Origin: Candidatus Peribacter sp.
Lineage (GTDB): Bacteria > Patescibacteriota > Gracilibacteria > Peribacterales > Peribacteraceae
Assembly: GCA_018652955.1 (NCBI GenBank)
Contig: JABIBA010000005.1
Span: 1-32,622 of the forward strand
Length of the DNA: 32,622 bases
Direction of reading: 5' to 3'
Within the stretch, counting starts at the first letter, position 1, and each line of letters begins with the position of its first letter. This document shows positions 1-31,699 of this stretch, one piece after another. The notes under the pieces are model-generated. The model saw only the letters and a list, made by a program, of their open reading frames with translations, made no database searches and had not been told where the DNA came from. The position numbers and the translations under genes were made by a program.

Positions 1-122
1 GACGATAGCGGTGACACTGGTACAATTGGTGATAGTAGCGGCGAAACCGGTGCAACTGATGGAGGAGACGATAGCGGTGACACTGGTACAATTGGTGATA
101 GTAGCGGCGAAACCGGTGCAAC
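1..122 (+). repeat. 66-bp tandem repeat inside the Cys-rich surface gene
   Basis: Bases 1-56 and 67-122 are identical, giving a 66-bp (22-codon) period that encodes DDSGDTGTIGDSSGETGAT. A further decayed SGET unit follows at about 124. The array may continue upstream of the window. Confidence 0.9.
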
Positions 123-2493
123 ATCAGGTGAAACTGCAGGCGATGATGGAGGAACTGATGAAGATGATGGTGGTCCCTGTTGCAAAGATCCAGACCCTTC
201 TGAAGCTGCATGTACAGCAGGTGCATGTGTTCCGTCATCGTGTGGTTGTAATACAGATTCTTGTAGCTGGATTTGCACGAGTGATTGTGGAGGATGTTCT
301 TCGGATCAAGATGACGAAGAAATGGAAGACGAAGAAGAAGAAGAGGAGGAAGAGGAAGAGGATGACGCTTCAGGCTCTTCTAGTGCAAAGAGTAGTGCTA
401 AAAGTAGTGGATGTACTGACGATAGTGATTGTGGATCTTTCGTCTATAAATGTAATGGATGTAAACAAGATACGAATACGCAAACATGTGTATTTGGTTC
501 TTGTGTAGATAACATCTCAACAGGAACTTGTCCTGATCCTGCATGCAAGAAGGAGGACAAAGAACACATGGGTTGTGTAATACTAAGTCCAGGCATATTT
601 ACTTGTGGGTCTGTGTCCGGAGAAGGAGAAGATGAATGCCAGTCTGCTTCAGACTGTTATTCAAACCTGAGGAGTAGTGCAGCAAGTATTGCCTCTGATA
701 AGAAATCTAGTGAACAGGCGACACATCTCTCTTGTGTAGGTAATTCCTGTATTACGGTCGATGGTGCTGGTGACGATGGTTGTACAGATAACACAGAGTG
801 CATAGAAGAAAATGAGCACTTAGCTTGCGTAGATAATTCTTGTATTGCGGTCGCCGGAGAAGGAGAAAACGACTGCACAGATAACACGGAGTGTATTGCA
901 GAGGACGAGCACCTAACTTGCGTAGATAAAGCGTGTACTGCGGTAGATGGAGAAGGCGACAATGACTGTACAGATAACACAGGTTGTATAGATGAAGATG
1001 AACATCTCACCTGCATTGATAAAACCTGCACAGTTGTCGATGGCGAAGGGGATAATGAGTGTGTAAATAACACAGGATGCATATCAAAAGATGAACATCT
1101 CGCATGTAAAGATCAAGCGTGTGTAGCAATTCTCTCAAAAGGAGATAATACCTGTGTGACTGATGCTGGTTGCAAGAATGCAAGTAGCTCAAGTTCTAGT
1201 AAAAGTGCAATTAGCTCTGTAGCAAGTTCCGCTTGCCCACAATGTGAGCTTCCACCAAGTAATGAATGTATCGGACTTGGAGAATGTGGATGTGGACCTT
1301 ATATTTGTCCGAGCTCATCTACGGCAACAACATCAACTGCAACAACATCTGTAGCAACAACTTCTATTGCTTCATCAAAACGTTCTGTAATTGCACTTAT
1401 TTCTTCTAGCTATTCATCCGATGCTCCATTGTGTGCAGATGAGTGTAATCCTCCTCCTCCAGATCCAAATTGTGTAGGCCTTGGACCATGCGAATGTGGG
1501 CCATATGTTTGCCCTCAAGATCTTAGTGATGATGAATTTTATGACGACGACGATGATGCTAATACTGGCAACAACAACAACGGCGGAGGCAACAATAGTG
1601 AAAACAACGGCGGCGAAAGTTTCGACCCGCAGCGTTGCGGTAACGGCACCCTCGAACCAGGTGAACAGTGTGAAACGGGATCTACGAATTACTGCACCTC
1701 TAGTAGAGTGTGCAATACATCTGATTGCACCTGCTATGCAGTTCCTCCCTTGCCAAACTGTGGAGATGGCACCCTCCAACAAGGAGAACAGTGTGAGAGC
1801 GGATCGATTAATTACTGCACCAAAGGAAGAACATGTAACACCGATCTTTGTACGTGTGTGCCGCCGACATCTCTTTGTACGAGTGACAACGATTGTGGAG
1901 AGGATGTCTGTAAAAATAGTAAATGCGTCGAACCAGTAAGAACACTTGTCGCTGCAGCACCTCTTTGTGGAAATGGAATCGTAGATAACGGGGAGCAATG
2001 TGATGACGGAAACCTTCGTAGTGGAGATGGTTGCAATAGAGCATGTCTCGAAGATTATGATGTGACTGGTACGCAGGTAGCTGCTGATACGTCTAGTGCT
2101 TTGCAACAAGCTTTAGCGATTCCTATAGGTGTACAAAAAGCATTACCAACTCCTTCATCTGTTCTTGCAGATACACAGTTTGCGTCGAATACTGCTCAAA
2201 TTTCCAATGTTGTTGGGGGTCAATTTACAAATTATGCACCGGGCGTGTCACAAGTACAAAATCAATACACCAATAGGGCACAAGTTCTTGGAGGTATGTA
2301 TCAACAACAGCAGCAATTCGGTTTCCCTCAGTATCCAAACTTCCAGCAACTTCCATACCAATTACCACTTGCACAGTTGCAACCTCTTGCTACGCGAAGA
2401 GCACCGATAGGAGACACGGGACCAGCTGCAGTAGCAGTAATAGGCGCGGGTGCAGCTGCGGGACTTAGTTGGATACGAAGAAAGAGGAAGTAG
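1..2493 (+). CDS. Large cysteine-rich, repeat-rich surface protein, 5' end outside window
   Basis: The frame is open from base 1, so the gene enters from outside; 830 residues are visible. In order they show a Gly/Asp/Thr segment with a perfect 66-bp tandem repeat (1-122), Cys clusters, an acidic Glu run (about 322-366), Ser/Lys/Ala linkers, about five 31-residue (93-bp) Cys repeats built on CTDNTxC...EHLxC...C (about 778-1160), two units of the type C..C.PP..C.GLG.C.CGPY.CP (about 1233-1310 and 1435-1515), two CGxGTLxxGEQCxxG units and one CGNGIVDNGEQCDDGN unit. The last matches the Myxococcus-type Cys-rich repeat (DUF4215/TIGR02232-like). A Gln/Pro-rich stretch follows. The C-terminus has IGDTGP, a short Ala/Gly hydrophobic segment and RRKRK, like a degenerate sortase-type or C-terminal membrane anchor. 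It is probably a disulfide-rich extracellular stalk or adhesin. Its stop codon abuts the stop of the convergent SLH-CAP gene. The precise function is unknown. Confidence 0.85.
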   Translation, partial: DDSGDTGTIGDSSGETGATDGGDDSGDTGTIGDSSGETGATSGETAGDDGGTDEDDGGPCCKDPDPSEAACTAGACVPSSCGCNTDSCSWICTSDCGGCSSDQDDEEMEDEEEEEEEEEEDDASGSSSAKSSAKSSGCTDDSDCGSFVYKCNGCKQDTNTQTCVFGSCVDNISTGTCPDPACKKEDKEHMGCVILSPGIFTCGSVSGEGEDECQSASDCYSNLRSSAASIASDKKSSEQATHLSCVGNSCITVDGAGDDGCTDNTECIEENEHLACVDNSCIAVAGEGENDCTDNTECIAEDEHLTCVDKACTAVDGEGDNDCTDNTGCIDEDEHLTCIDKTCTVVDGEGDNECVNNTGCISKDEHLACKDQACVAILSKGDNTCVTDAGCKNASSSSSSKSAISSVASSACPQCELPPSNECIGLGECGCGPYICPSSSTATTSTATTSVATTSIASSKRSVIALISSSYSSDAPLCADECNPPPPDPNCVGLGPCECGPYVCPQDLSDDEFYDDDDDANTGNNNNGGGNNSENNGGESFDPQRCGNGTLEPGEQCETGSTNYCTSSRVCNTSDCTCYAVPPLPNCGDGTLQQGEQCESGSINYCTKGRTCNTDLCTCVPPTSLCTSDNDCGEDVCKNSKCVEPVRTLVAAAPLCGNGIVDNGEQCDDGNLRSGDGCNRACLEDYDVTGTQVAADTSSALQQALAIPIGVQKALPTPSSVLADTQFASNTAQISNVVGGQFTNYAPGVSQVQNQYTNRAQVLGGMYQQQQQFGFPQYPNFQQLPYQLPLAQLQPLATRRAPIGDTGPAAVAVIGAGAAAGLSWIRRKRK
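778..1160 (+). repeat. 93-bp Cys-rich coding repeats
   Basis: About four full units and one degenerate unit of 31 residues, each with four Cys in a fixed pattern (CTDNTxC, then EHLxC, then a final C before the next GEGxN). Units differ by many substitutions, so the array is older than the perfect repeat at the window start. Confidence 0.8.
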
Positions 2494-3717
2494 TTAATTG
2501 AACTTGAGCCTTCCAAAGTTTTGAACCCACTCATCTTCAAACAGTCCAATACCAATTTCTTCGAACTCCGGTCGCAAAATATTTCGCCGGTGATTGGGGC
2601 TGTTCATCCAGTCTTCCATTACCTGCTTTACCGAAAGTTGTCCCTTAGCTAAGTTTTCTCCAAGTGAGAAGATTGGCTCACAGCTGCATTCTTGTAGACC
2701 TGTGAGGATAAAGTCGGGTCCTTGGTCTTCCACAGTAGATTCACCACCAAGGTCAAACTGTTGCGCACAGCTACAGGAATTTGGATTGATATCTAAGTAT
2801 CCACCTCCACGAATACGGTCAACGTAACTTAAGCCTTCTGGTGTGTAGTGACTAAAGTATCCGCGTTCTGCCATATCTTTTGCATGACGTTGTGCAGAAA
2901 CTTCAAGGTAGTAGTTACTTCTAATAGGAGTCAGTTTAAATTTCGCGCGCTCTTCGTTTACTGCATGGATCAAGTCGTTGCGTGTTTGCTCGGCGAGACT
3001 TCCTCGAGAACGAATGAGTCCAAGCACTGCAGACTTTACGGTTTTTGGTGTAGCGATATCGGTATAACTTTTTGCAAGTTTTGATGTCGTAGTAGCAACA
3101 GAGATCGTCACGTTTTCGAAGAACGAAGAACGTGAATCTTTCGGTGCGCTGTAGTGCTCCTCTTTTACAGGGAACATATCTGGCTCTGGCTGAAGAGATG
3201 GCTCTGCAGTAAGTAGTGTGTAAATCGCCATTGCCGCTTCTTTGTGCGTAATCTTAAGCTCTGGTTGAAAGAGATTAGGATTTTGTTTATTTCCAATAAG
3301 TTTATATCGCCAAGAAAGTCCCACATATGGACTGTAATTTGCGCCGACAGGAATATCTGTATATTGATAGGGGATGTTTGTCGTCAGATCGAACACCTTT
3401 GTCGTCATCATCAAAAACTCAGCGCGCGTTACAGATTTATGTGGATACGCAAAACTTGTAGAAGGGTCTGGGGTGAGCAATCCTAGTTTTATAGCTTTGA
3501 TCATATAGGGGGCATACCACTGACCATCGATCATGTCGGGGTAGTCTCCGAAGGTCTGCACATCTTTTTCTACAGTGATACCAGCGTTCTTCATAAGTAT
3601 CATTGCGGCCTCTGCCCTACGCACATAGGTGATAGGTTCTTGCGCTGCTCCAACGTTTATTAGAAGGGGAGCGAATGTAAGCAGGCCGATAAATACTGAA
3701 GATATAAATTTACGCAT
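2494..3717 (-). CDS. Secreted SLH-domain / CAP (SCP-like) protein
   Basis: 407 residues. A Sec signal peptide (about 1-25, cleavage after VGAA) is followed by two or three S-layer homology repeats (about 58-110 with the VTRAEF motif, about 118-169), a linker, and a C-terminal CAP/SCP domain (about 245-400). The CAP core shows VNEERAKFKLTPI, a His in GYFSHYTPEG, SLGENLAKG and DWMNSPNHRRNIL. SLH domains usually bind cell-wall polymer, so this should be a wall-attached exported protein; bacterial CAP domains have no settled activity. An insertion (about 312-347) contains two C-x-C pairs, echoing the Cys-rich neighbour. It converges on that neighbour with zero bases between stop codons. The start is the first ATG, supported by a TAGAAT element 10 nt upstream. 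Confidence 0.88.
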   Translation of the reverse strand: MRKFISSVFIGLLTFAPLLINVGAAQEPITYVRRAEAAMILMKNAGITVEKDVQTFGDYPDMIDGQWYAPYMIKAIKLGLLTPDPSTSFAYPHKSVTRAEFLMMTTKVFDLTTNIPYQYTDIPVGANYSPYVGLSWRYKLIGNKQNPNLFQPELKITHKEAAMAIYTLLTAEPSLQPEPDMFPVKEEHYSAPKDSRSSFFENVTISVATTTSKLAKSYTDIATPKTVKSAVLGLIRSRGSLAEQTRNDLIHAVNEERAKFKLTPIRSNYYLEVSAQRHAKDMAERGYFSHYTPEGLSYVDRIRGGGYLDINPNSCSCAQQFDLGGESTVEDQGPDFILTGLQECSCEPIFSLGENLAKGQLSVKQVMEDWMNSPNHRRNILRPEFEEIGIGLFEDEWVQNFGRLKFN

Positions 3718-19969: not shown

Positions 19970-22900
19970 ATGACATCAGAAGTCGACTTCCTCCTCCCGG
20001 GATCTATAGAAAATATTCACCAAGCAGTGAATAGTTTTTCTGGAGAGGGTTCACTTCTTAAACTTACGAAGAAGCAGAGGCAGCAGTGGATCTCAACTCT
20101 TCTTGGTTCATGTGAATATGATCAACTGTCAAGAAATGACAAAGGTCTCGTTCGCCAATATATTCAAAATGAAACAGGGTACTCCAGAGCACAAACTGCG
20201 AGACTGATTAGTTCGAGTCTCAAGGCTATTCGCACTGAGCCTCAGGTTCTTATGCCACAGGTGGAAGCAAAGAAGCTTTTGCCACTACGAACAATCACAC
20301 TTACATCTGCTGTAGGAGTAATGCTCCTTCTCGTAATGTCTCGTCCAGAAACGGGGATCGAATTTCTCAATGCTGATGTGCAGAAGACTCTCACGGTCTC
20401 ATCAGAGATTCCCAAGGATCCATTTGATCCTAAAGATCCAGAACTAACTCAGGCAGTTCCCGTTCGTACGACTGTATATTCCTTGCTAGATTCTGGTAAG
20501 CACCCACTCTTCGTTCAGCAAGAGAACGTAGCATTCTCTGCAGACGTCGCCGTTGCATACGAAAAGATCGTAGCGGTGACAGTTTCAGAGTTAGAGAAGC
20601 GTGTTGCTCTGCGTCGCAGTTTACGGTCCTTAAGGACAGCGTTTACAACTGCTGTGCGTCCTGAGCCTCAGGCTCAAGAGATGAAACAGGCCGCACCATC
20701 ATCTACTGAGGTAGTTGAGCAAGTTTCCGGACATCGCATTCTGCGACTTGGTGCATCTACTATTAACCAAGAGGGAGCTGTAACACAGGTTCGTGGTCGT
20801 ACAACTGCACATGATACACGTGCAGGATTGATGGCTGATATATTCAGGCGAGCTGCACAGCGCAGAGCTGCTAGGATTGTGTTCGTCCCAGAAGAAGATC
20901 GTTACAGTCCTCCAGAGGTGGTGCATGCAAGTGCGGGGCCAATCTACGCATCTGCTCCAAACATCTGGAATGCAATGGGGAGTGGAGATGACGGACAGGT
21001 ATTGATGGTAGTTGATGGAACACCGCAGTGGACATTCATCAACAAGACCAATGTAGAGCAACTCCCATCTGGATATGTGAGTCGTCGTGGAGGAGGAAGT
21101 GGACGAGGAGGCGGAGGTGGAGGAGGTGGATCTTCTGGATCCGATGGAGCTGCAGGTGCAGATGGAGCTGCGGGAGCAGCAGGTGCTTCAGGTGCTGACG
21201 GAGCAGATGGTCCTACACTTGGAATCTATAACTCACTCATCCTTGAAAGTTCTGGAGGCCTAGAAGCTGGAAATGCCAGCGGACAGAAGCTTATACAAGT
21301 AGGACTACTTACATCATCTGGAAAATTGATTGTCGAAAATGATGTTCGGTTTAATTCTGGTGTGATCATCAACGGAGTGTCATACCTCTTCCCATCTTCT
21401 GATGGCAGCGCTTCTGGGAAAGTACTGCATACAGACGGTAATGGAAACCTAAGCTGGTCTACAGATGACGGTGCTGGAGGGGGAACAACAGAGTATGCAG
21501 GTCAGGGACTGAACAAAAATGGAGATAATTTCATTTCTCTCAATTCAGCTCTTACTGGAACAGACATTCTCGCTCTCAACTCGCTCCGATCAAGCGGAAC
21601 ATTAGTAGTTGCAGGGACATCTACGCTCTCTGGAGCTGTGACGATCAACGATGAAATCGCCTTTGGTTCTGGTCTCATCATCAACGGTGTTACCTACAGA
21701 TACCCAAGTTCAGATGGATCTGCTTCTGGAAAGGTTCTTTCGACAGATGGAAATGGAAACCTCTCTTGGTCTGATGATGACACAGGAGGCTCATCTCTCT
21801 CTGCAGGGCAGGGAATAAGTATCGCTTCAGACTTCATCACATTAACTTCAACACTCACAGGAACATCTGTTCACGCTATCGATCGCCTCTCTTCTTCTGG
21901 AGTATTGCTTGTCGATGGGGATGCAGATATTCGTGGAATTCTTTCGGGTGCTGTAGTGAAGGCAACAAACAGCCTCGCATCCTCTGGATCTCTCCAGGTA
22001 GAAGGTGCTGCTAATATTCACGGAACACTCTCAGGAAACACGATTGCAGGATTCAATCTTTCCGATTGTAATGGCGCATCAAACAAGCTTGTCTACAACG
22101 CAGCAAGTCAGCGATTTGAGTGTGAAGGGGATACTGATACCACCATTGCAGATACAGATACCACATACACAGAAGGCCAAGGCTTAACCCTTGATGGAAC
22201 AACTTTCTCCCTAACAGCTGCACATTCAGGAACAACTATCGAAGGAACAACTCTCCTTTCTGGAGCCCTTGTTCACGCTCAAAATGGACTGACATCATCT
22301 GGAACTCTTCAGGTAGATGGAGCTGTAGAATTTGGATCCACACTCACGATTGGAGGAGTGACCTATGTCTTCCCTGTAGGAAATGCTTCTGCCACAGGAA
22401 AAGTCCTTAAGTCAGATGGAAGTGGAAACCTCTCATGGTCTGACGATACCGATACCACTGTTGCAGATACCGACACGACCTACAGTGCAGGACAGGGAAC
22501 AAGTATCGATGGCGCTAACTTCATCACGCTCTCAGCAACACTCACTGGAACAGATATCCTCGCACTCAACTCTCTACGTTCCTCAGGAACGTTAGTGGTT
22601 AAAGGCGCATCAACACTCTCTGGAACGACCACTATTCAAGATGATCTCATCGCAAACTCTGGAGCAATCTTTAATGACGAAGTAGTCTTCGGTTCAGGAA
22701 TCATCATCGAGAATATTACCTATCACTTCCCACAAGCGGAGGGAGCGTCAGGTACTGTTCTTGCAACAGATGGAGGAGGAAATCTTACATGGACAACTGC
22801 AGCTTCTTCTCTCTCTGCAGGGCAGGGAATCAGTATTGATTCAGACTTCATCACTCTCACAGAAACCCTCACAGGAACATCACTTCAAGTTTCTGACTCA

Positions 22901-25900
22901 CTCGCTTCCTCCGGAACATTGGTTGTAGAAGGAGATACAGAGCTTCATGGCAATCTCTCAGGTTCTACTATTCAAGCTGCAACATCCCTCACAACTTCTG
23001 GAACTCTCGTTACAGAAGGGGATGCTACTATCAATGGAACTTTGAGTACAAATACGATTACTCGTATTGGCGATGATGATACTAATATAAACTTAGGAAA
23101 TAGTGATCAAATATACTTAAGAGCTGGTGGAATTGACTTTATAGACATGAATGAAACATTTGAAGATATTCTAACATTCAACCCTGCAAGTAATGATATT
23201 GATACAATTATTGAGGGAGATAATGATCTTTATTTATTCTATGCAGATGCAGGAACTGATCGTATTGGTATTAGTACAGATGCACCAGATACAAAACTAG
23301 AAGTAGTAGGCACTATCTCTGGTTCTCAGGTCTACGCAGCGGACACGCTTCGCTCTTCTGGAGCATTAATTGTAGATGGAGATACCTTCCTCGATGGTGA
23401 AGTTACCTTCGGGTCTGGCCTCATCATCAACGGTGTCACTTACAGATTTCCAAGCTCAGATGGTTCTGCCACAGGAAAAGTCTTGGCTACAGATGGTAAT
23501 GGAAACCTCAGCTGGACTACGGCTGCTGCAGGAGGATCAACCTACTACGGAGGACAGGGGATTAGTATTAACGGATCAGACTTCATCACACTTTCATCAA
23601 CTCTTACAGGAACAGATATCCTTGCTCTCAACTCTCTTCGTTCATCTGGAACCTTAGTCGTTGCAGGAGCATCTACTCTTTCTGGAACGACCACTATCCA
23701 AGATGATCTCATCGCAAACTCTGGAGCAATCTTTAATGACGAAGTGGTCTTTGGTTCAGGGCTCATCATCAACGGAATTACGTATCTATATCCAGATTCC
23801 GATGGTTCTGCAAACCAAGTACTCCACACAGATGGAAACGGAAATCTTACATGGGCTGCAGATGATGGAGCTGGTGGAGGGTCTACAGAAGACGCAGGTC
23901 AGGGACTTTCTAAAAATGGTTCAGACTTTATTAGTCTTAGTGCTGCATTTACTGGAACAGATATCCTTGCTCTCAACTCTCTTCGCAGTTCCGGAACTCT
24001 AGTAGTTGCAGGAACATCTACATTGTCTGGAGCTGTGACAATCAACGATGAAGTGACTTTCGGATCAGGATTGATCATCAACGGAGTCACATATCTCTAT
24101 CCAAGTTCAGATGGTTCTGCAAACCAAGTACTCCACACGGATGGAAATGGAAATCTTACATGGGCTGCAGATGATGGAGCTGGTGGAGGATCTACAGAAG
24201 ATGCAGGTCAGGGACTTTCTAAAAATGGTGCAGACTTCATTAGCTTGAATGCAACTATTACTGGATCAGATATCCTCGCCCTTGATTCTCTACGATCAAG
24301 TGGAACCCTAGTCGTAGCAGGAACATCCACACTCTCTGGAACGACCACTATTCAAGATGATCTCATCGCAAACTCTGGAGCAGTCTTTAATGACGAAGTA
24401 GTCTTCGGTTCAGGAATCATCATCGAGAATATTACCTATCACTTCCCACAAGCGCAGGGAGCGTCAGGTACTGTTCTTGCAACAGATGGAGGTGGAAACC
24501 TCACATGGACAACTGCAGCTTCTTCCCTCTCTGCAGGGCAGGGAATCAGTATTAGTTCTGACTTCATCACTCTCACTTCTACACTAACAGGATCTTCAGT
24601 CCACGCTATCGATCGACTCTCTTCATCCGGAGTCTTACTCGTAGATGGTGATGCAGATATCCGTGGAATCCTTTCGGGTGCTATTGTAAAAGCTGCTACA
24701 ACCCTTACATCTTCTGGATCTCTTCAGGTAGAAGGTGCTGCCAATGTTCACGGAACACTCTCTGGAAACACTATCACAGGATTCAATCTTGCTGACTGTA
24801 ACGGTTCTTCTAACAAATTAGTCTACAACGCAGCAAACCAACGATTTGAATGTGAAACAGATACCGATACAACAATTGCAGATACAGATACCACGTACAC
24901 AGAAGGTCAAGGTCTTACCCTTGATGGAACAACGTTCTCCCTAACAGCTGCACATTCAGGAACAACTATCGAAGGAACAACTCTCCTTTCTGGAGCCCTT
25001 GTTCACGCTCAAAACGGATTGACATCATCTGGAACTCTTCAGGTAGATGGAGCTGTAGAATTTGGATCCACACTCACGATTGGAGGAGTACTTTACATCT
25101 TCCCAGTGGGAGACGGGTCAGCTACTGGAAAAGTTCTCAAGACTGACGGTAGCGGAAACCTCAGCTGGAGTGATGACACAGACACAACAATTGCAGACAC
25201 AGATACAACATACAGTGCAGGTCAGGGAGTAAGTATTGATGGATCTAATTTCATCACCCTCACTTCAACCCTTACAGGAACATCTGTTCACGCTATCGAT
25301 CGTCTCTCATCTTCTGGAGTACTTGTTGTCGATGGTGATGCAGATATTCGTGGAATCCTCTCTGGCTCTATCGTCAAAGCTGCAACAACCCTTACATCCT
25401 CTGGATCTCTCCAGATAGAAGGTGCTGCCAATATTCACGGAACACTCTCAGGAAACACGATTGCAGGATTCAATCTTTCCGATTGTAATGGCGCATCAAA
25501 CAAGCTTGTCTACAACGCAGCAAATCAACGATTTGAATGTGAAGGAGATACCGATACAACAATTGCAGATACTGATACCACGTACACAGAAGGCCAAGGT
25601 CTGACCCTCGACGGAACAACTTTCTCCCTAACAGCTGCACATTCAGGAACAACTATCGAAGGAACAACTCTCCTTTCTGGAGCCCTTGTTCACGCTCAAA
25701 ACGGACTGACATCATCTGGAACTCTTCAGGTAGATGGAGCTGTTGAATTTGGATCTACACTCACCATTGGAGGAGTGACCTATGTCTTCCCTGTTGGAAA
25801 CGGATCTGCCACAGGAAAAGTCCTCAAAACAGACGGCTCAGGAAACCTCTCATGGTCTGACGATACGGATACCACCATTGCAGATACGGACACTACCTAC

Positions 25901-28900
25901 GATGGAGGACAGGGAATTTCTATCGATGGAAACAACTTCATCACCCTATCAGCGACTCTTACTGGAACAGATATCCTCGCATTAAATTCACTTCGATCAA
26001 GTGGAACCTTAGTAGTTGCAGGAACATCGACACTCTCTGGAGCTGTGACCATCAACGACGAAGTCACCTTCGGTTCAGGGCTTATTATTAACGGAATCAC
26101 TTACAGATTCCCAGGTTCAGATGGTTCTGCAAACCAAGTACTGCACACAGACGGAAACGGAAACCTCACATGGGCTGCAGATGATAGTGGAGCTGGTGCT
26201 CTTTCTGCAGGTCAGGGAATCAGTATCAACGGATCTGACTTTATTGTCCTTACTTCAACACTTACAGGATCTTCAGTTCACGCTATCGATCGACTCTCTT
26301 CTTCTGGAGTATTGCTTGTCGATGGTGATGCAGATATCCGAGGAATCCTCTCGGGTGCTATTGTTAAGGCAACAAATAGTCTCACTTCTTCAGGAACTTT
26401 GGTTGTAGAGAAAGATGCAAGATTTAATTCTGGTATAACTATCCAAACAACAACAGATGCTATTACTGCCTTCCAAGTTCTAGATGCAAATGGAGGACGT
26501 TCTATATTGAATGTTGATACAACAAACGAGAGAGTAGGTATAGGAACAGATACACCTACTGTAAAACTTCAAGTTCAAAATAATGCAGGTACCACTCCTT
26601 CATATGAAAGTAATACTGTTGCTGGTTTTTCAAATACAGCTGGAGGAACTAGTGAGGCATTTATTGCAGTTGCAGGAGGATCTGTTGGAGTATCTGGATA
26701 TAATTTCGGTTCCAGTGGAGATTCAGACGATGGACAAATCCTTTACAGAAAATCACTCAATAAACTCGAATTCGTTGCTGATAAAGTGACACAATTCTCT
26801 ATCGATTCGAGTGGTATAGCCTCAGGATTGTATCTCCATGCACAAGGTTTGCTTACCTCTTCAGGTGCATTTGCTGTCGAAGGAGATTCATATTTACAGG
26901 GAGAAGTCACCTTCGGTTCAGGAATCATCATCGAGAATATTACCTATCACTTCCCACAGGCTGAGGGAGCGTCAGGTACTGTTCTTGCAACAGATGGAGG
27001 TGGAAATCTCACGTGGACAACTGCAGCTTCTTCTCTCTCTGCAGGTCAAGGAATTTCAATTGCTTCAGACTTCATTACTCTCACATCAACCCTCACAGGA
27101 ACATCACTCCAAGTCTCTGACTCACTCGCTTCCTCTGGAACATTGGTTGTAGAAGGAGATACAGAGCTTCATGGAAACCTCTCAGGTTCTACTATTCAAG
27201 CAGCAACATCCCTTACAACTTCTGGCACCTTGGTTGCAGAAGGAGATGCGGACATTCATGGGACACTCTCTGGTGCAACAGTCCGTTCAAGTTCTGGCCT
27301 AGTAGTACTCAATGGAAGGATGGGTATTGGTACTGACACACCAAAAACATCTTTGCACATTTTCGATGGTGTCTCAGGTGGAACACCAGATAGTGGTACA
27401 CGTCTTCTTATAGAAGATAACACCACTGCACGTCTAGAATTCCTTGTACCAGGTGATGGAATCTCTGCAGGTATTTACTTTAGTGATGCTGCTGAAGCTG
27501 GTATTGGTCAGATAAATTATAGTCATACGTCAGATCAAATGCTCCTTGAGGCTGAGGACGCTGTGAGTTTCCGAGTAGGTAACATCAGTAATCGAATGAT
27601 CATTAACTCTGGTGGAAATGTTGGTATTGGTATGGGGACAGATCTTTCTCCAGAAGCAAAACTCGAAGTCATAGGTGCTATTTCTGGTTCTAAAATTTAT
27701 GCAAATGACATTCTGCAATCTTCTGGTGCGCTTGCCATTGAAGGGGATTCCTTCCTTGCGGGAGAAGTCACCTTCGGATCAGGACTCATCATCAACGGAG
27801 TGACGTACAGATTCCCAGGTTCCGATGGCTCTGCAAACCAAGTATTGCACACAGATGGAAACGGAAACTTATCATGGGCTGCTGATGACGGTTCTGGAGG
27901 AGGGTCTACAGAAGACGCAGGTCAGGGACTAACTAAAAATGGCGCAGACTTTATTAGTCTTAATGCTGCATTTACAGGAACAGATATCCTTGCATTAAGC
28001 TCACTTCGATCAAGTGGAACTCTCGTCGTAGCAGGAACATCTACACTCTCTGGAGCGGTCACGATCAACGATGAAGTCGCCTTTGGTTCAGGTCTTATTA
28101 TCAACGGTGTCACCTACAGATTCCCAAGTTCAGATGGTTCTGCTTCTGGAAAAGTATTGGCAACAGACAGTAATGGAAACCTGAGTTGGACAGCTGCTGG
28201 AGCTGGAGGATCAACATATTATGGTGGGCAGGGAATTAGTATCAACGGATCAGACTTCATCACTCTTACATCAACACTTACAGGAACATCAGTCCATGCA
28301 TCAGACTACTTGGCATCATCTGGAGTGCTTGTGGTGGAAAACGCCGCAACTACTACAGGTGCATACATCGAACAAATTGGTAATGGAATGGCAATGGTGG
28401 TTGAATCGAGTGCTACGACTCAAGATATTCTTACAATCTCTGGTGCTAGGCTTACTACAGGATTTGCTATAGATATTCCAAATCTTGATTCTCTCACTGC
28501 ATCAGGAGGAGGATTGCGCATTATCAGCAACTCTAGCAATACTGGGGTGAGAAACCTTGTAGAACTCTTTAACGATAATCCTGCAGCAAGTGGTACGACT
28601 GTACTTTCTATAAGACAGGATGCTGGTGGTACAGGTGTTTCTATTGATATGAATGGAGATGGTGTTGCATTGGATATTGATTCAGAAGCAGATAGTGAAG
28701 CAGGTATCCGCATCAGTATGAATGCAAAGAATGCGAATGACAGAAATCATCTTTCATTTGGATACAATAATCTCTTTGATGCCAATCTCTTCCGCAGTGA
28801 AGAAAATACACTCACGACAAGTGGGGCATTTGTTATAGATCCTCACGGGTTTGATAGCGTGTTCTATTTCGACAGTGCAACGTATAATGACCATACCGCA

Positions 28901-31699
28901 GAGGCAAATACGTCATCTGGTACGCAATTTACAATTTTAGGGAGTAATGCAGATTTCTTATATGTTGGTTCTCATACGCCATTTGGTGTTGTCGATTTCA
29001 ATATAGGAACACCAATGAATGCTGGTATGCACTTACAGCTGGATTACTACAATGGTTCGTGGTCTAGCATTGGCTTCAAAGATAACACAGCATCATTTTC
29101 TAGTGGTGGGATGATCACGTTTAATGCACCAACAGACTGGAGTAAGACACAACTAGAGATGGAGCCAGAGCCTGTCTACTACGTCCGTTTTTATGTTGAT
29201 AGCGAAAGCACCATTACCCGAGGATCAACGGCATACTCTGTTTCTCCGTCACAGGGATATCGATTTAAGGTTCACAGTCAGTCTGGAGATCCAGAGCCGA
29301 CATTCATTGTAGATTCCTACAAGCATGCAGCGTTCGGTACAGGGTATGATCTTCAAGCAGCTGCGACAATTTACACAGAGCGAGACTTTAATCAAGAAGC
29401 CCTGCTTATCAAGACAGATGAAAATACTGCTACACAAAATGTTTTCCGTATTATCTCGGATGTAGCTTCTGATAACGATAATGCCTTCCGTATTAGAGCG
29501 GATGGTTCAACGTTCTCCGACAATGCATACAGTGCTTCTGGAGCTGACTACGCTGAATGGTTTGCAACACGTGATGATGTGCAAAAAGGAGAAGTGGTAT
29601 GTATCTCTGTTGATCAGAACAATGCAGTAGAGCGTTGTACCGATGATGCAGATAGCAATGTGATGGGAGTGGTATCCACCAATCCAGCATTTATTGGAAA
29701 TACCATTACAGGAGCAGATGGAGTAATGCCTCCTGGATATGCATTGATCGGTCTTATCGGACAGGTGCCAACGAAGGTTCTCATAGCTCCATATGGAGAA
29801 GGGGTTCTCAACATTAGTCCAGGTGATGCGCTTACTCCTGCAAGCAAGCCTGGGTACGCACGAAGAGCGCTTCCAGGAGAGCCAACAGTGGGTGTCGCCT
29901 TAGAGAGGTTTGAAGGAAAAAGTGGTACAGAAGGAACAGTAAATGTACTGATCTCTCGCCGCAATAGTTCTGTAACAGTAGATCAAGTAGAACAGGAAGT
30001 ACTTGATCAAATCGCCTCTATGGAAATAGAGGACGAAGTGGAAATTATGGTTGCTGGAGCTATTGAGGCAATTGACTTCAACGACGATATCCTTGCTGTT
30101 GTCCGTCAGCAAATACAAGAAGTTGATTTGCGACAAACGGTTCTCGATATTCTTGAAGAAGCTGGTATCGGTACAGGAACAACGGTCGCCACACAGGAGC
30201 AGCACAATGTACAGATGTTAGCTGTAGAGCTTGGAACTGGGTCTGCTCTTTGGGGAATAGTGGATACACTCGAAGCAGAGATTGCACAGTTGCGAGAAGG
30301 AATGCAGATTATGAGTGGTGCAATCGCTACCCACCCTGAGAACTTCGAAAACCTCTCTATTGCAGACACTTTAATGATTGGTGGAGATGCGAGAGCGGTT
30401 AAAGACTTCTACGTCGATGGCACTCTGCATGCAGAAGACATCTTTGTTCCGGGACTTATTCATATTGATGGAAGAGTGGATATAACAGGGAATATGGATA
30501 TTGCAGGTGATACAGAAATAGCAGGAAGACTGACTGCAGGTTCATTCGAAATCAATAGTGGAGCGACTGTTCATGGGCCACTACACATCGACGGTGTACT
30601 AGTGATCGACGGACAGGAAATCGATCTTTCCGGTCTTGTTTCTACAGGATCAATGCTCAACCTCAGTAGTCTTCTCGTACAAAACTCTATGATGGTTCTT
30701 GGAAATATTACTATCGATGGCATGGCAGAGATCCTTGGTGATGTTACTATCGGAGGAAGTCTAACTGTCTCTGGAGCCCTTACCATAAACAATAACCAGG
30801 CAGGGTATGCAGTAGTTGTCGAAACAGGAACATCGGCAATCGTAAGCTTTGGATCTGGTACCTATTCGTATCCACCAATAATCACTGCGAGTTCTGATAA
30901 CTTTATTCCATGGCGTATTCACAGTGTGACGGGAACAGGATTCGTTATCGAAACCAAAGAGCAAGCTGCAGAAGATATTACGTTCTCATGGCATGCAATG
31001 CTTACGGAAGATCCGAATACCTTTAAGGGACTCCCTGCAGGAGCTAGCGTAAACGACATCGCATTCTTTGTAGATAACAATGGAGTACCGCTAAGTACCA
31101 GTGATATCTGGAATGCATGTATCAGAAACCAGCAACCACTGGGTCTTGATGGTAAGCCATTTAATTGCCGCCGATACAGAGATAGTGGCGAGAAGTGGAC
31201 GCACCCAGATCACCCAATTGAATTCCTCTGGGATCCAGATGCAAACGATCTGCGTCTCGTAATTCCACGTGGATACTACATTGAGGTTGTCGGAGAAGTA
31301 GAAGAGGAGATAGATGAGCCGGAGATCAAGGAGGCTACAGAAAGCGAGAAGACCGAAGAGGAAGAGGTAGAATCCGGAACTGGAGAAACAGTGGTAGAAG
31401 AGGAAGAAGTAGAAACAGGAACAGGAACAGGTGAAGTCATCATCGAAGAAAAACCAGAAACAGGAACAGGTGAAGTCGTCATCGAAGAGAATCCTGAAAC
31501 AGGAACAGGTGAAACGGTTATCGAAAAGCAAGAACCAGAACCAGAGCCAGAGCCAGAACCAGAACCAGAGCCAGAACCGCAGCCTGAACCAGAACCAGAA
31601 TCGCAGCCAGAACCTGCGCCAGAGCCAGAGTCAGAACCGCAGCCTGAACCAGAACCAGAACCTGAACCAGAATCTGAAGAGGAATCGTCAGAAGAATAA
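19970..31699 (+). CDS. Giant membrane-anchored modular fibre protein with N-terminal helix-turn-helix
   Basis: 3909 residues. Cytoplasmic N-terminus (1-104): LTKKQRQQWI ... LSRNDKGLVRQYI ... TGYSRAQTARLI, resembling the N-terminal HTH of IS/integrase-type transposases. One transmembrane segment (about 107-123) after Lys/Arg gives an N-in anchor. A Gly-rich hinge and eight collagen-like G-X-Y triplets (about 372-416) follow. Residues about 457-2790 are an array of 14 modules centred on FGSG-IINGVTY-FP, alternating with SSGTLVV, TDGNGNLSW and SAGQGISI segments, plus three inserts carrying GI(G/S)TD(T/A)P or GIGMGTD motifs as in phage tail fibres. About 2960-3100 is a beta-sandwich-like unit (W...F...G.I.FNAPTDW...YYVRF). 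About 3188-3335 (SGADYAEWFATRDDVQKGEV) resembles the Peptidase_G2/IMC autoprocessing region. Then come a coiled coil (3338-3400), bactofilin-like beta repeats (3460-3610), a beta domain and an acidic Glu-Pro tail (3776-3909). Likely a trimeric surface fibre or adhesin; function inferred. Confidence 0.9.
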   Translation: MTSEVDFLLPGSIENIHQAVNSFSGEGSLLKLTKKQRQQWISTLLGSCEYDQLSRNDKGLVRQYIQNETGYSRAQTARLISSSLKAIRTEPQVLMPQVEAKKLLPLRTITLTSAVGVMLLLVMSRPETGIEFLNADVQKTLTVSSEIPKDPFDPKDPELTQAVPVRTTVYSLLDSGKHPLFVQQENVAFSADVAVAYEKIVAVTVSELEKRVALRRSLRSLRTAFTTAVRPEPQAQEMKQAAPSSTEVVEQVSGHRILRLGASTINQEGAVTQVRGRTTAHDTRAGLMADIFRRAAQRRAARIVFVPEEDRYSPPEVVHASAGPIYASAPNIWNAMGSGDDGQVLMVVDGTPQWTFINKTNVEQLPSGYVSRRGGGSGRGGGGGGGGSSGSDGAAGADGAAGAAGASGADGADGPTLGIYNSLILESSGGLEAGNASGQKLIQVGLLTSSGKLIVENDVRFNSGVIINGVSYLFPSSDGSASGKVLHTDGNGNLSWSTDDGAGGGTTEYAGQGLNKNGDNFISLNSALTGTDILALNSLRSSGTLVVAGTSTLSGAVTINDEIAFGSGLIINGVTYRYPSSDGSASGKVLSTDGNGNLSWSDDDTGGSSLSAGQGISIASDFITLTSTLTGTSVHAIDRLSSSGVLLVDGDADIRGILSGAVVKATNSLASSGSLQVEGAANIHGTLSGNTIAGFNLSDCNGASNKLVYNAASQRFECEGDTDTTIADTDTTYTEGQGLTLDGTTFSLTAAHSGTTIEGTTLLSGALVHAQNGLTSSGTLQVDGAVEFGSTLTIGGVTYVFPVGNASATGKVLKSDGSGNLSWSDDTDTTVADTDTTYSAGQGTSIDGANFITLSATLTGTDILALNSLRSSGTLVVKGASTLSGTTTIQDDLIANSGAIFNDEVVFGSGIIIENITYHFPQAEGASGTVLATDGGGNLTWTTAASSLSAGQGISIDSDFITLTETLTGTSLQVSDSLASSGTLVVEGDTELHGNLSGSTIQAATSLTTSGTLVTEGDATINGTLSTNTITRIGDDDTNINLGNSDQIYLRAGGIDFIDMNETFEDILTFNPASNDIDTIIEGDNDLYLFYADAGTDRIGISTDAPDTKLEVVGTISGSQVYAADTLRSSGALIVDGDTFLDGEVTFGSGLIINGVTYRFPSSDGSATGKVLATDGNGNLSWTTAAAGGSTYYGGQGISINGSDFITLSSTLTGTDILALNSLRSSGTLVVAGASTLSGTTTIQDDLIANSGAIFNDEVVFGSGLIINGITYLYPDSDGSANQVLHTDGNGNLTWAADDGAGGGSTEDAGQGLSKNGSDFISLSAAFTGTDILALNSLRSSGTLVVAGTSTLSGAVTINDEVTFGSGLIINGVTYLYPSSDGSANQVLHTDGNGNLTWAADDGAGGGSTEDAGQGLSKNGADFISLNATITGSDILALDSLRSSGTLVVAGTSTLSGTTTIQDDLIANSGAVFNDEVVFGSGIIIENITYHFPQAQGASGTVLATDGGGNLTWTTAASSLSAGQGISISSDFITLTSTLTGSSVHAIDRLSSSGVLLVDGDADIRGILSGAIVKAATTLTSSGSLQVEGAANVHGTLSGNTITGFNLADCNGSSNKLVYNAANQRFECETDTDTTIADTDTTYTEGQGLTLDGTTFSLTAAHSGTTIEGTTLLSGALVHAQNGLTSSGTLQVDGAVEFGSTLTIGGVLYIFPVGDGSATGKVLKTDGSGNLSWSDDTDTTIADTDTTYSAGQGVSIDGSNFITLTSTLTGTSVHAIDRLSSSGVLVVDGDADIRGILSGSIVKAATTLTSSGSLQIEGAANIHGTLSGNTIAGFNLSDCNGASNKLVYNAANQRFECEGDTDTTIADTDTTYTEGQGLTLDGTTFSLTAAHSGTTIEGTTLLSGALVHAQNGLTSSGTLQVDGAVEFGSTLTIGGVTYVFPVGNGSATGKVLKTDGSGNLSWSDDTDTTIADTDTTYDGGQGISIDGNNFITLSATLTGTDILALNSLRSSGTLVVAGTSTLSGAVTINDEVTFGSGLIINGITYRFPGSDGSANQVLHTDGNGNLTWAADDSGAGALSAGQGISINGSDFIVLTSTLTGSSVHAIDRLSSSGVLLVDGDADIRGILSGAIVKATNSLTSSGTLVVEKDARFNSGITIQTTTDAITAFQVLDANGGRSILNVDTTNERVGIGTDTPTVKLQVQNNAGTTPSYESNTVAGFSNTAGGTSEAFIAVAGGSVGVSGYNFGSSGDSDDGQILYRKSLNKLEFVADKVTQFSIDSSGIASGLYLHAQGLLTSSGAFAVEGDSYLQGEVTFGSGIIIENITYHFPQAEGASGTVLATDGGGNLTWTTAASSLSAGQGISIASDFITLTSTLTGTSLQVSDSLASSGTLVVEGDTELHGNLSGSTIQAATSLTTSGTLVAEGDADIHGTLSGATVRSSSGLVVLNGRMGIGTDTPKTSLHIFDGVSGGTPDSGTRLLIEDNTTARLEFLVPGDGISAGIYFSDAAEAGIGQINYSHTSDQMLLEAEDAVSFRVGNISNRMIINSGGNVGIGMGTDLSPEAKLEVIGAISGSKIYANDILQSSGALAIEGDSFLAGEVTFGSGLIINGVTYRFPGSDGSANQVLHTDGNGNLSWAADDGSGGGSTEDAGQGLTKNGADFISLNAAFTGTDILALSSLRSSGTLVVAGTSTLSGAVTINDEVAFGSGLIINGVTYRFPSSDGSASGKVLATDSNGNLSWTAAGAGGSTYYGGQGISINGSDFITLTSTLTGTSVHASDYLASSGVLVVENAATTTGAYIEQIGNGMAMVVESSATTQDILTISGARLTTGFAIDIPNLDSLTASGGGLRIISNSSNTGVRNLVELFNDNPAASGTTVLSIRQDAGGTGVSIDMNGDGVALDIDSEADSEAGIRISMNAKNANDRNHLSFGYNNLFDANLFRSEENTLTTSGAFVIDPHGFDSVFYFDSATYNDHTAEANTSSGTQFTILGSNADFLYVGSHTPFGVVDFNIGTPMNAGMHLQLDYYNGSWSSIGFKDNTASFSSGGMITFNAPTDWSKTQLEMEPEPVYYVRFYVDSESTITRGSTAYSVSPSQGYRFKVHSQSGDPEPTFIVDSYKHAAFGTGYDLQAAATIYTERDFNQEALLIKTDENTATQNVFRIISDVASDNDNAFRIRADGSTFSDNAYSASGADYAEWFATRDDVQKGEVVCISVDQNNAVERCTDDADSNVMGVVSTNPAFIGNTITGADGVMPPGYALIGLIGQVPTKVLIAPYGEGVLNISPGDALTPASKPGYARRALPGEPTVGVALERFEGKSGTEGTVNVLISRRNSSVTVDQVEQEVLDQIASMEIEDEVEIMVAGAIEAIDFNDDILAVVRQQIQEVDLRQTVLDILEEAGIGTGTTVATQEQHNVQMLAVELGTGSALWGIVDTLEAEIAQLREGMQIMSGAIATHPENFENLSIADTLMIGGDARAVKDFYVDGTLHAEDIFVPGLIHIDGRVDITGNMDIAGDTEIAGRLTAGSFEINSGATVHGPLHIDGVLVIDGQEIDLSGLVSTGSMLNLSSLLVQNSMMVLGNITIDGMAEILGDVTIGGSLTVSGALTINNNQAGYAVVVETGTSAIVSFGSGTYSYPPIITASSDNFIPWRIHSVTGTGFVIETKEQAAEDITFSWHAMLTEDPNTFKGLPAGASVNDIAFFVDNNGVPLSTSDIWNACIRNQQPLGLDGKPFNCRRYRDSGEKWTHPDHPIEFLWDPDANDLRLVIPRGYYIEVVGEVEEEIDEPEIKEATESEKTEEEEVESGTGETVVEEEEVETGTGTGEVIIEEKPETGTGEVVIEENPETGTGETVIEKQEPEPEPEPEPEPEPEPQPEPEPESQPEPAPEPESEPQPEPEPEPEPESEEESSEE
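21146..21217 (+). repeat. Short collagen-like G-X-Y coding stretch
   Basis: Eight Gly-X-Y triplets rich in Ala and Asp, preceded by a poly-Gly segment. Short collagen-like runs often promote trimerisation, which fits a fibre. Only one hinge-type stretch is present. Confidence 0.7.
21340..28330 (+). repeat. Array of 14 fibre modules
   Basis: The FGSG-type motif recurs at about 21350, 21662, 22331, 22688, 23408, 23750, 24059, 24405, 25066, 25746, 26069, 26915, 27774 and 28082. Spacings fall into classes: about 308-357 bp (short), 661-719 bp (long) and about 850 bp (with inserts). Segments 22613-22837 and 24329-24553 differ at 6 of 225 bases; 22191-22359 and 24921-25089 at 3 of 169. The 22021 region recurs at 25438 at an in-frame offset of 3417 bp. 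Confidence 0.9.
31421..31690 (+). repeat. Tail repeats: 39-bp units then Glu-Pro dipeptides
   Basis: Three 13-residue units (GTGEVIIEEKPET, GTGEVVIEENPET and a third beginning GTGETVIEK) are followed by a long run of Glu-Pro/Gln-Pro dipeptides from six-base units (GAACCA/GAGCCA). The tail is rigid, acidic and probably extended. It carries no visible C-terminal anchor or sorting signal. Confidence 0.85.

Follow-up and report, generated by a model that had tools for sequence, protein, structure and literature searches.

The window analysed here is a stretch of 32,622 nucleotides from Candidatus Peribacter sp. (contig JABIBA010000005.1 of GenBank assembly GCA_018652955.1), and it holds the gene for a giant fibre protein of 3,909 amino acids (aa; 19970..31699, an open frame with an ATG start on the + strand, as are all features below). 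Residues ~3156-3330 of this protein are homologous to the D4 autochaperone domain of gp12 from phage phi29 (Pfam Peptidase_G2, PF11962). The domain is internal in the chain, and the Asp and Glu of the gp12 cut site are present at the equivalent positions. The interpretation we favour, if tentatively, is an internalised D4-type autochaperone that would trimerise, nick itself and stay attached. If the domain does cut, a large family of surface fibres in Patescibacteria would undergo maturation by a cut that yields a defined tip fragment. How these tiny host-dependent bacteria recognize and bind other cells is described as still largely unknown (PMC12206443).

Homology of the domain to phage D4 autochaperones

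A preliminary description of the DNA had likened positions 29515-29975 (aa ~3182-3335 of the fibre protein) to the Peptidase_G2/IMC autoproteolytic region of phage appendages, quoting a segment that begins at aa 3190 and in which the D of DYAEWF is residue 3193. Profile and fold matches to gp12 bear out this relationship. A stalk strand entering the domain spans aa 3156-3192 (29435..29545) and aligns to phi29 gp12 from residue 656 onward in the structure alignment to 3suc, and the D4-like (Peptidase_G2-type) domain itself, placed by paralogue, profile and fold matches, spans aa 3193-3330 (29546..29959).

Direct searches with the window protein returned little. PF11962 did not match it, either whole (E <= 1) or as a 233-aa slice (E <= 0.1), and the NCBIfam scan gave chance matches only. 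The PHROGs scan of the region gave nothing usable, with phrog_22593 at E 0.03 and with phrog_5070 and phrog_36281 matching the later beta-rich part of the protein. A phmmer search of the PDB with the window domain alone retrieved only a collagen adhesin (E 0.59), whereas paralogue and profile queries did better. A paralogue in the same genome (C1, a 979-aa frame) shares 44% identity with the window domain (E 4.3e-32) and ends directly after its own domain, which is thus terminal. The hidden Markov model check proposed in the preliminary description is accordingly split, being negative for the window sequence and positive for this paralogue (27.8 bits, above the curated cut-off of 25) and for 13 of the 20 members of sequence set A1 (E <= 0.1, best 4.3e-8), which were hand-picked from the 67 loci of the domain search and the window.

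The A1 profile detected P22 of 8h2i (2.2e-10), Dpo31 D4 (3e-5) and phi29 gp12 (1e-4 and 5.5e-4) in the PDB. A second set, A2, consists of the window and 56 of 78 stretches, the omitted ones being 19 Rhodobacteraceae stretches, L061, L046 and L002, which is the window itself. Aligned to gp12 with hhalign, A2 reached a probability of 85.6 (E 5.6e-6); the 61 aligned columns are confined to the first half of the domain, where the sequence likeness to gp12 mainly lies, and the second segment is weak. The A2 profile gave 0 matches at E <= 1 against residue-shuffled open reading frames (ORFs). Weak profile matches in frames of 250-310 aa mostly cover the second half and were excluded from the family, except for L162 in the motif counts.

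The predicted fold covers both halves. An AlphaFold2 monomer model of aa 3145-3377, built from 57 sequences, has a predicted local distance difference test score (pLDDT) of 84.8, and its best match is uncleaved gp12, 3suc (Z 14.8, VIA; 151 residues, 2.9 A; Foldseek E 3.6e-5), with model residues 12-185 aligned to chain residues 656-854. Against the free D4 fragment 3gqh the Z score is 14.2, and residue 692 falls on model residue 49, which is D3193. The next-best matches are mostly decoration-type phage capsid proteins, in agreement with the ECOD class given for the Peptidase_G2 domain in PMC13397572. The base of the phi29 head fibre, gp8.5 (6qyy), also matches (Z 9.0); it retains the later GD-x-L-T and VTLVISR segments and has no D-x-A-E at the equivalent position (it starts MMVSFTARAK). 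Two cysteines, C3211 and C3223 (29600..29638), could form an extracellular disulphide within the domain: 47 of the 57 A2 rows have both and the remaining 10 have neither. Both lie C-terminal to the predicted cut, so that a bond between them could stiffen the domain and would not tie the two parts together.

Cut site and conservation of the catalytic pair

The cut in phi29 gp12 is placed by its PDB chains, since 3gq7 has S691 as its last residue and 3gqh has D692 as its first; virion models of gp12* likewise stop at residue 691 (PMC6542822). Over residues 660-854, the range compared, the uncleaved, 'pre-mature' 3suc differs from the phage record by E695Q, D701G and G817S. The last two changes are common to 3gqh, which leaves E695Q as the sole change peculiar to the uncleaved form within this range. 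The 3suc protein with E695Q is still folded with D4 attached, and it seems that the Glu of gp12 is needed for cutting and not for the fold.

The window protein reads A3192|D3193-Y-A-E3196, with D3193 and E3196 aligned to D692 and E695 of gp12, and both catalytic positions are therefore occupied. The predicted scissile bond is A3192|D3193 (29543..29548), aligned to S691|D692, and E3196 (29555..29557) is the counterpart of E695, where 3suc has Q. The full-length PDB chain of Dpo31 has the native junction A|DYAE, as in the window; its isolated D4 chain shows 'GS' ahead of DYAE, which we take as a construct end. Dpo31 D4 is systematically missing from the expressed protein and is seen as a separate band (PMC13317679), so an Ala ahead of the cut is compatible with cutting.

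The Glu is found in 122 of 122 aligned residues and the Asp in 119 of 120, from 125 unique copies. Among 38 divergent copies, with neither DYAE nor DFAE, the counts are 35/35 for Glu and 32/33 for Asp. A control profile was rebuilt without stalk and motif, although its loci still come from full-sequence searches and some bias is left. With this profile, D-x-A-E stands directly upstream in 98 of 107 unique matches, compared to 576 of 5,350 random 75-residue segments drawn from the same proteins. Nine matches lack D-x-A-E in the interval read: L151 has the motif just beyond it; L040, L142, L147, L152 and L156 retain the Glu but differ at one or more adjacent residues; L119 and L157 are truncated at the locus end, with the Glu present; and L162 lacks the Glu. 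Since gp8.5 lacks the motif and gp12 E695Q is folded, the same fold does not require the Asp/Glu pair. With moderate confidence, we take the conservation of the pair across these sequences as a sign that cutting may have been retained.

The domain is internal in most Peribacteria-group loci

From the Asp onward the window protein has 717 residues, 579 of them after the end of the domain. The relatives in viral contigs are built differently: among their 81 frames (from the best 80 of 264 relatives found with the pattern GADYAE[WY]), all 78 that include a stop end with the domain and have 136-232 residues after the Asp. The Peribacteria group comprises 39 of the 67 loci (L004-L041 and L047), 35 of them with Peregrinibacteria/Peribacter-type titles and four with vaguer ones. 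In 38 of these 39 loci 395-834 residues follow the Asp, and in L041 131 do. Among the other 28 loci, the 27 with a stop in hand have <=144 residues after the Asp, and L046, from Peribacteria, ends at a contig edge.

Several elements follow the domain. Helices are predicted at aa 3339-3397 and 3424-3448 (29984..30313) from the AlphaFold2 secondary structure, at low confidence (mean pLDDT per ten residues 42-61 and 45-55, respectively), and might form a trimeric coiled coil. The preliminary description had placed a coiled coil directly after the domain; a helical stretch is indeed predicted there, and it may be a coiled coil. A bactofilin-like stretch at aa 3481-3537 (30410..30580) matches PF04519 (cut-off 27.9) with 29.9 bits in a scan limited to the C-terminal 765 aa and with 19.5 bits, below the cut-off, in a scan of the full chain. 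Upstream of aa 3607 the model of the C-terminal part is poor, which makes the helices and the bactofilin-like part tentative assignments.

An H-type-lectin-like domain is then predicted at aa 3607-3679 (30788..31006; model residues 271-340, pLDDT 75-93 per ten residues). Its model resembles tailspike C-terminal domains (7eea, Pam1 tailspike, Z 10.5, 68 aligned, 1.7 A), Helix agglutinins (Z 7.5-7.8, with 2ccv at Z 7.8; Foldseek 4q56, E 4.8e-4) and the pyocin fibre tip 6ct8 (Z 7.2), where Z values below 8 may reflect a shared arrangement alone; no sequence match was found for the domain. Judged from this model, it is probably the adhesive end of the fibre. A conserved C-terminal segment at aa 3680-3775 (31007..31294) follows, with C3717 and C3733 both invariant in the 20 sequences of set A3, and the protein ends in a low-complexity Glu/Pro tail at aa 3776-3909 (31295..31696; 55 E and 24 P of 134 residues). 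The region after the domain is conserved throughout A3, which holds 20 of 21 delimitable stretches (L040 omitted); 19 of 40 frames gave no end.

This layout changes what a cut would release. The preliminary description had pictured the trimming of a C-terminal chaperone, with the Glu-Pro tail as the released piece. This picture is not supported. The tail exists, but a cut before D3193 would yield all 717 residues, comprising the D4-like domain, the helices, the bactofilin-like stretch, the H-type-lectin-like domain and then the tail. A terminal domain, from which only the chaperone would be released, is found in the viral frames and in the paralogue of the same genome, but not in the window protein or in 38 of the 39 Peribacteria-group loci. 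The likely adhesive tip is C-terminal to A3192|D3193, and a cut there would therefore probably free this tip and not a spent chaperone.

Proposed mechanism and alternative explanations

In the mechanism that we favour, the N-terminus would anchor the protein and the repeat shaft would emerge outside the cell. The D4-like domain (aa 3193-3330) would help three chains into register. Once the trimer of stalk and domain has formed, E3196 would assist the breakage of A3192|D3193, apparently like E695 in phi29 gp12, and the tip would remain docked on the shaft to give a nicked but complete fibre. Retention of the tip is proposed because the C-terminal piece holds the lectin-like domain, and possibly a coiled coil of its own, and because ATP is not expected outside the cell; this lack of ATP is an argument and no result.

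A number of points weigh against this mechanism. Besides the empty PF11962 scan of the window protein, three glycines and the Asp of the GD pair are as invariant as the Asp/Glu pair in the 38 divergent copies, so the pair might serve structure. The Asp is replaced by Ser in one L040 copy and by Asn in L156. The motif was itself among the search patterns (GADYAEWF, one of six), which introduces an ascertainment bias into its conservation. The gp12 chains 3gq7 and 3gqh may be designed constructs and not cleavage products. Sixteen proteins have two or three unique copies of the domain, nearly all with the motif, which would imply several cuts per fibre. Finally, the analysis shows the homology, the fold, the architecture, and the place and conservation of the catalytic pair, whereas we infer self-cleavage, trimer formation and tip retention. 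Proteins with multiple copies fit either segments that are nicked and held or a structural role, and argue against simple release. In six of them (L040, L038, L093, L104, L147 and L150), the divergent copies mostly read D[LV]AE, then x and Y.

The nearest competitor is a purely structural role, in which the domain would be a non-cutting trimer clamp between shaft and tip and the Asp and Glu would serve trimer contacts or ligand binding. Such a clamp would account for the position of the domain ahead of a likely adhesive tip in 38 of the 39 Peribacteria-group loci and for the proteins with several copies, and its fold recurs in decoration proteins of phage capsids and in the base of gp8.5, neither of which is known to cut itself. 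The fold, however, does without the pair in gp8.5 and in gp12 E695Q, yet the pair is near-invariant in this family, and we regard a clamp without cutting as possible but less likely than a nicked fibre.

Cutting might instead be followed by shedding, so that the 717-residue C-terminal piece departs and either exposes a new shaft end or becomes a soluble lectin-like factor. Both phage precedents point this way, as gp12* stops at residue 691 in the models of the virion (PMC6542822) and Dpo31 D4 is likewise lost (PMC13317679). The piece is, however, long, conserved in A3 and carries the likely binding tip, and for phi29 the release is described as requiring ATP (PMC13397572), with no ATP expected outside the cell; we consider shedding unlikely.

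The two remaining explanations are very improbable. An S74-type (endosialidase/MyRF) chaperone would have a comparable role in bacterial fibres, but fold and motif match gp12, and this identity was rejected because the window protein has no S74 Pfam match at E <= 1. Chance resemblance in a low-complexity fibre, to which the empty direct PF11962 scan would lend itself, is refuted by the PF11962 match of the paralogue, the PDB matches of the A1 profile, the hhalign result, the shuffled-ORF control and the fold match.

Beyond the window, the nicked and docked autochaperone suggests a wider picture that is speculative and that we put forward with some reserve. Patescibacteria may have placed a phage-type self-cutting autochaperone, in single or multiple copies, inside giant membrane-anchored fibres, whereby a fibre assembled as one chain would be nicked into stacked, docked trimeric segments with a separate tip that is possibly exchangeable or sheddable.

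Comparison with known systems

The D4 domain of phi29 gp12 (3suc, 3gqh) shares with the window domain its fold, the stalk-to-domain junction and D-[YF]-A-E at the cut. It differs in that it ends a virion protein and in that its release is described as ATP-dependent (PMC13397572), whereas the window domain is internal and probably extracellular, contains the Cys pair and has 579 residues behind it. Dpo31 D4 of phage Carin-1 (PDB 28lx, 28nb) has the A|DYAE junction and a proposed autochaperone role (PMC13317679), but is the last domain of a phage depolymerase spike. P22 of 8h2i is alike in domain sequence, including GADYAE (chain cU, residues 1088-1187), and differs in being a viral capsid protein, which we take to be that of the algal virus PBCV-1.

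Bacterial parallels exist at the level of the general idea. The gp12 authors reportedly suggested a similar maturation of bacterial adhesins. The MAT fibres of Bdellovibrio are bacterial surface fibres that carry a self-cutting chaperone of phage type, and an S74 autoproteolytic chaperone was shown to cut itself in the fibre protein Bd3182 (PMC10769870). With this precedent, the general idea of such a chaperone on bacterial fibres is not new; Bd3182 differs by its S74 family, catalytic Ser and terminal position. Candidatus Peribacter riflensis, of the same bacterial group, has very large extracellular proteins, possibly for attachment, and the available part of its account mentions no autochaperone domain (PMC4736985). 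Our literature search, with most subscription papers outside its reach, found no G2-type autochaperone inside a bacterial surface fibre and none for Patescibacteria; a search by Pfam and InterPro domain names, judged by title and the start of the abstract, found none on bacterial surface proteins.

Distribution of the domain

Among named organisms, the domain has its closest relatives in Candidatus Peribacter and other Peregrinibacteria/Peribacteria. Within the family, 36 of 56 genomes carry the window domain, and across the phylum 96 of 286, that of the window included, give matches to the A2 profile, the weakest of which extend over no more than a part of it. At E <= 0.001, PF11962 itself is matched in 6 of 145 genomes of the class, all six from the same family, and five of them, including that of the window, are above the cut-off. 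Roseobacter-type bacterial proteins (L049-L057 and L059-L070) are mostly ~390-490 aa long and have the domain at their end, with GADYAEWFEW.

The fibre gene and its genomic setting

The host genome of 1.2 Mb is assembled in 17 contigs with a completeness of 99.14%. A scan of ten window ORFs identified chromosomal genes adjoining the fibre gene, namely those for SecY, a type-M24 peptidase, RpoA, DprA, triosephosphate isomerase, ribulose-phosphate epimerase and SAICAR synthetase. The fibre protein belongs to the bacterial chromosome, and the earlier assumption of a bacterial protein agrees with these neighbours and with a single membrane-spanning stretch near the N-terminus. This predicted stretch, aa 104-122 (20279..20335), is the hydropathy maximum of the entire protein, and no 19-aa interval above 1.6 was found outside aa 96-129. 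From it we infer a surface topology with the N-terminus inside and the shaft outside.

Ahead of the membrane stretch, aa 53-80 (20126-20209), probably cytosolic, have the pattern LSRxxKGxVRxYxxxxTGYSRAxxxRxI, for which no Pfam match was found and which also occurs in L014 and L018. Other surface-type proteins are encoded in positions 1-3717 of the window: a DUF4215 protein and a CAP protein with an S-layer homology domain.

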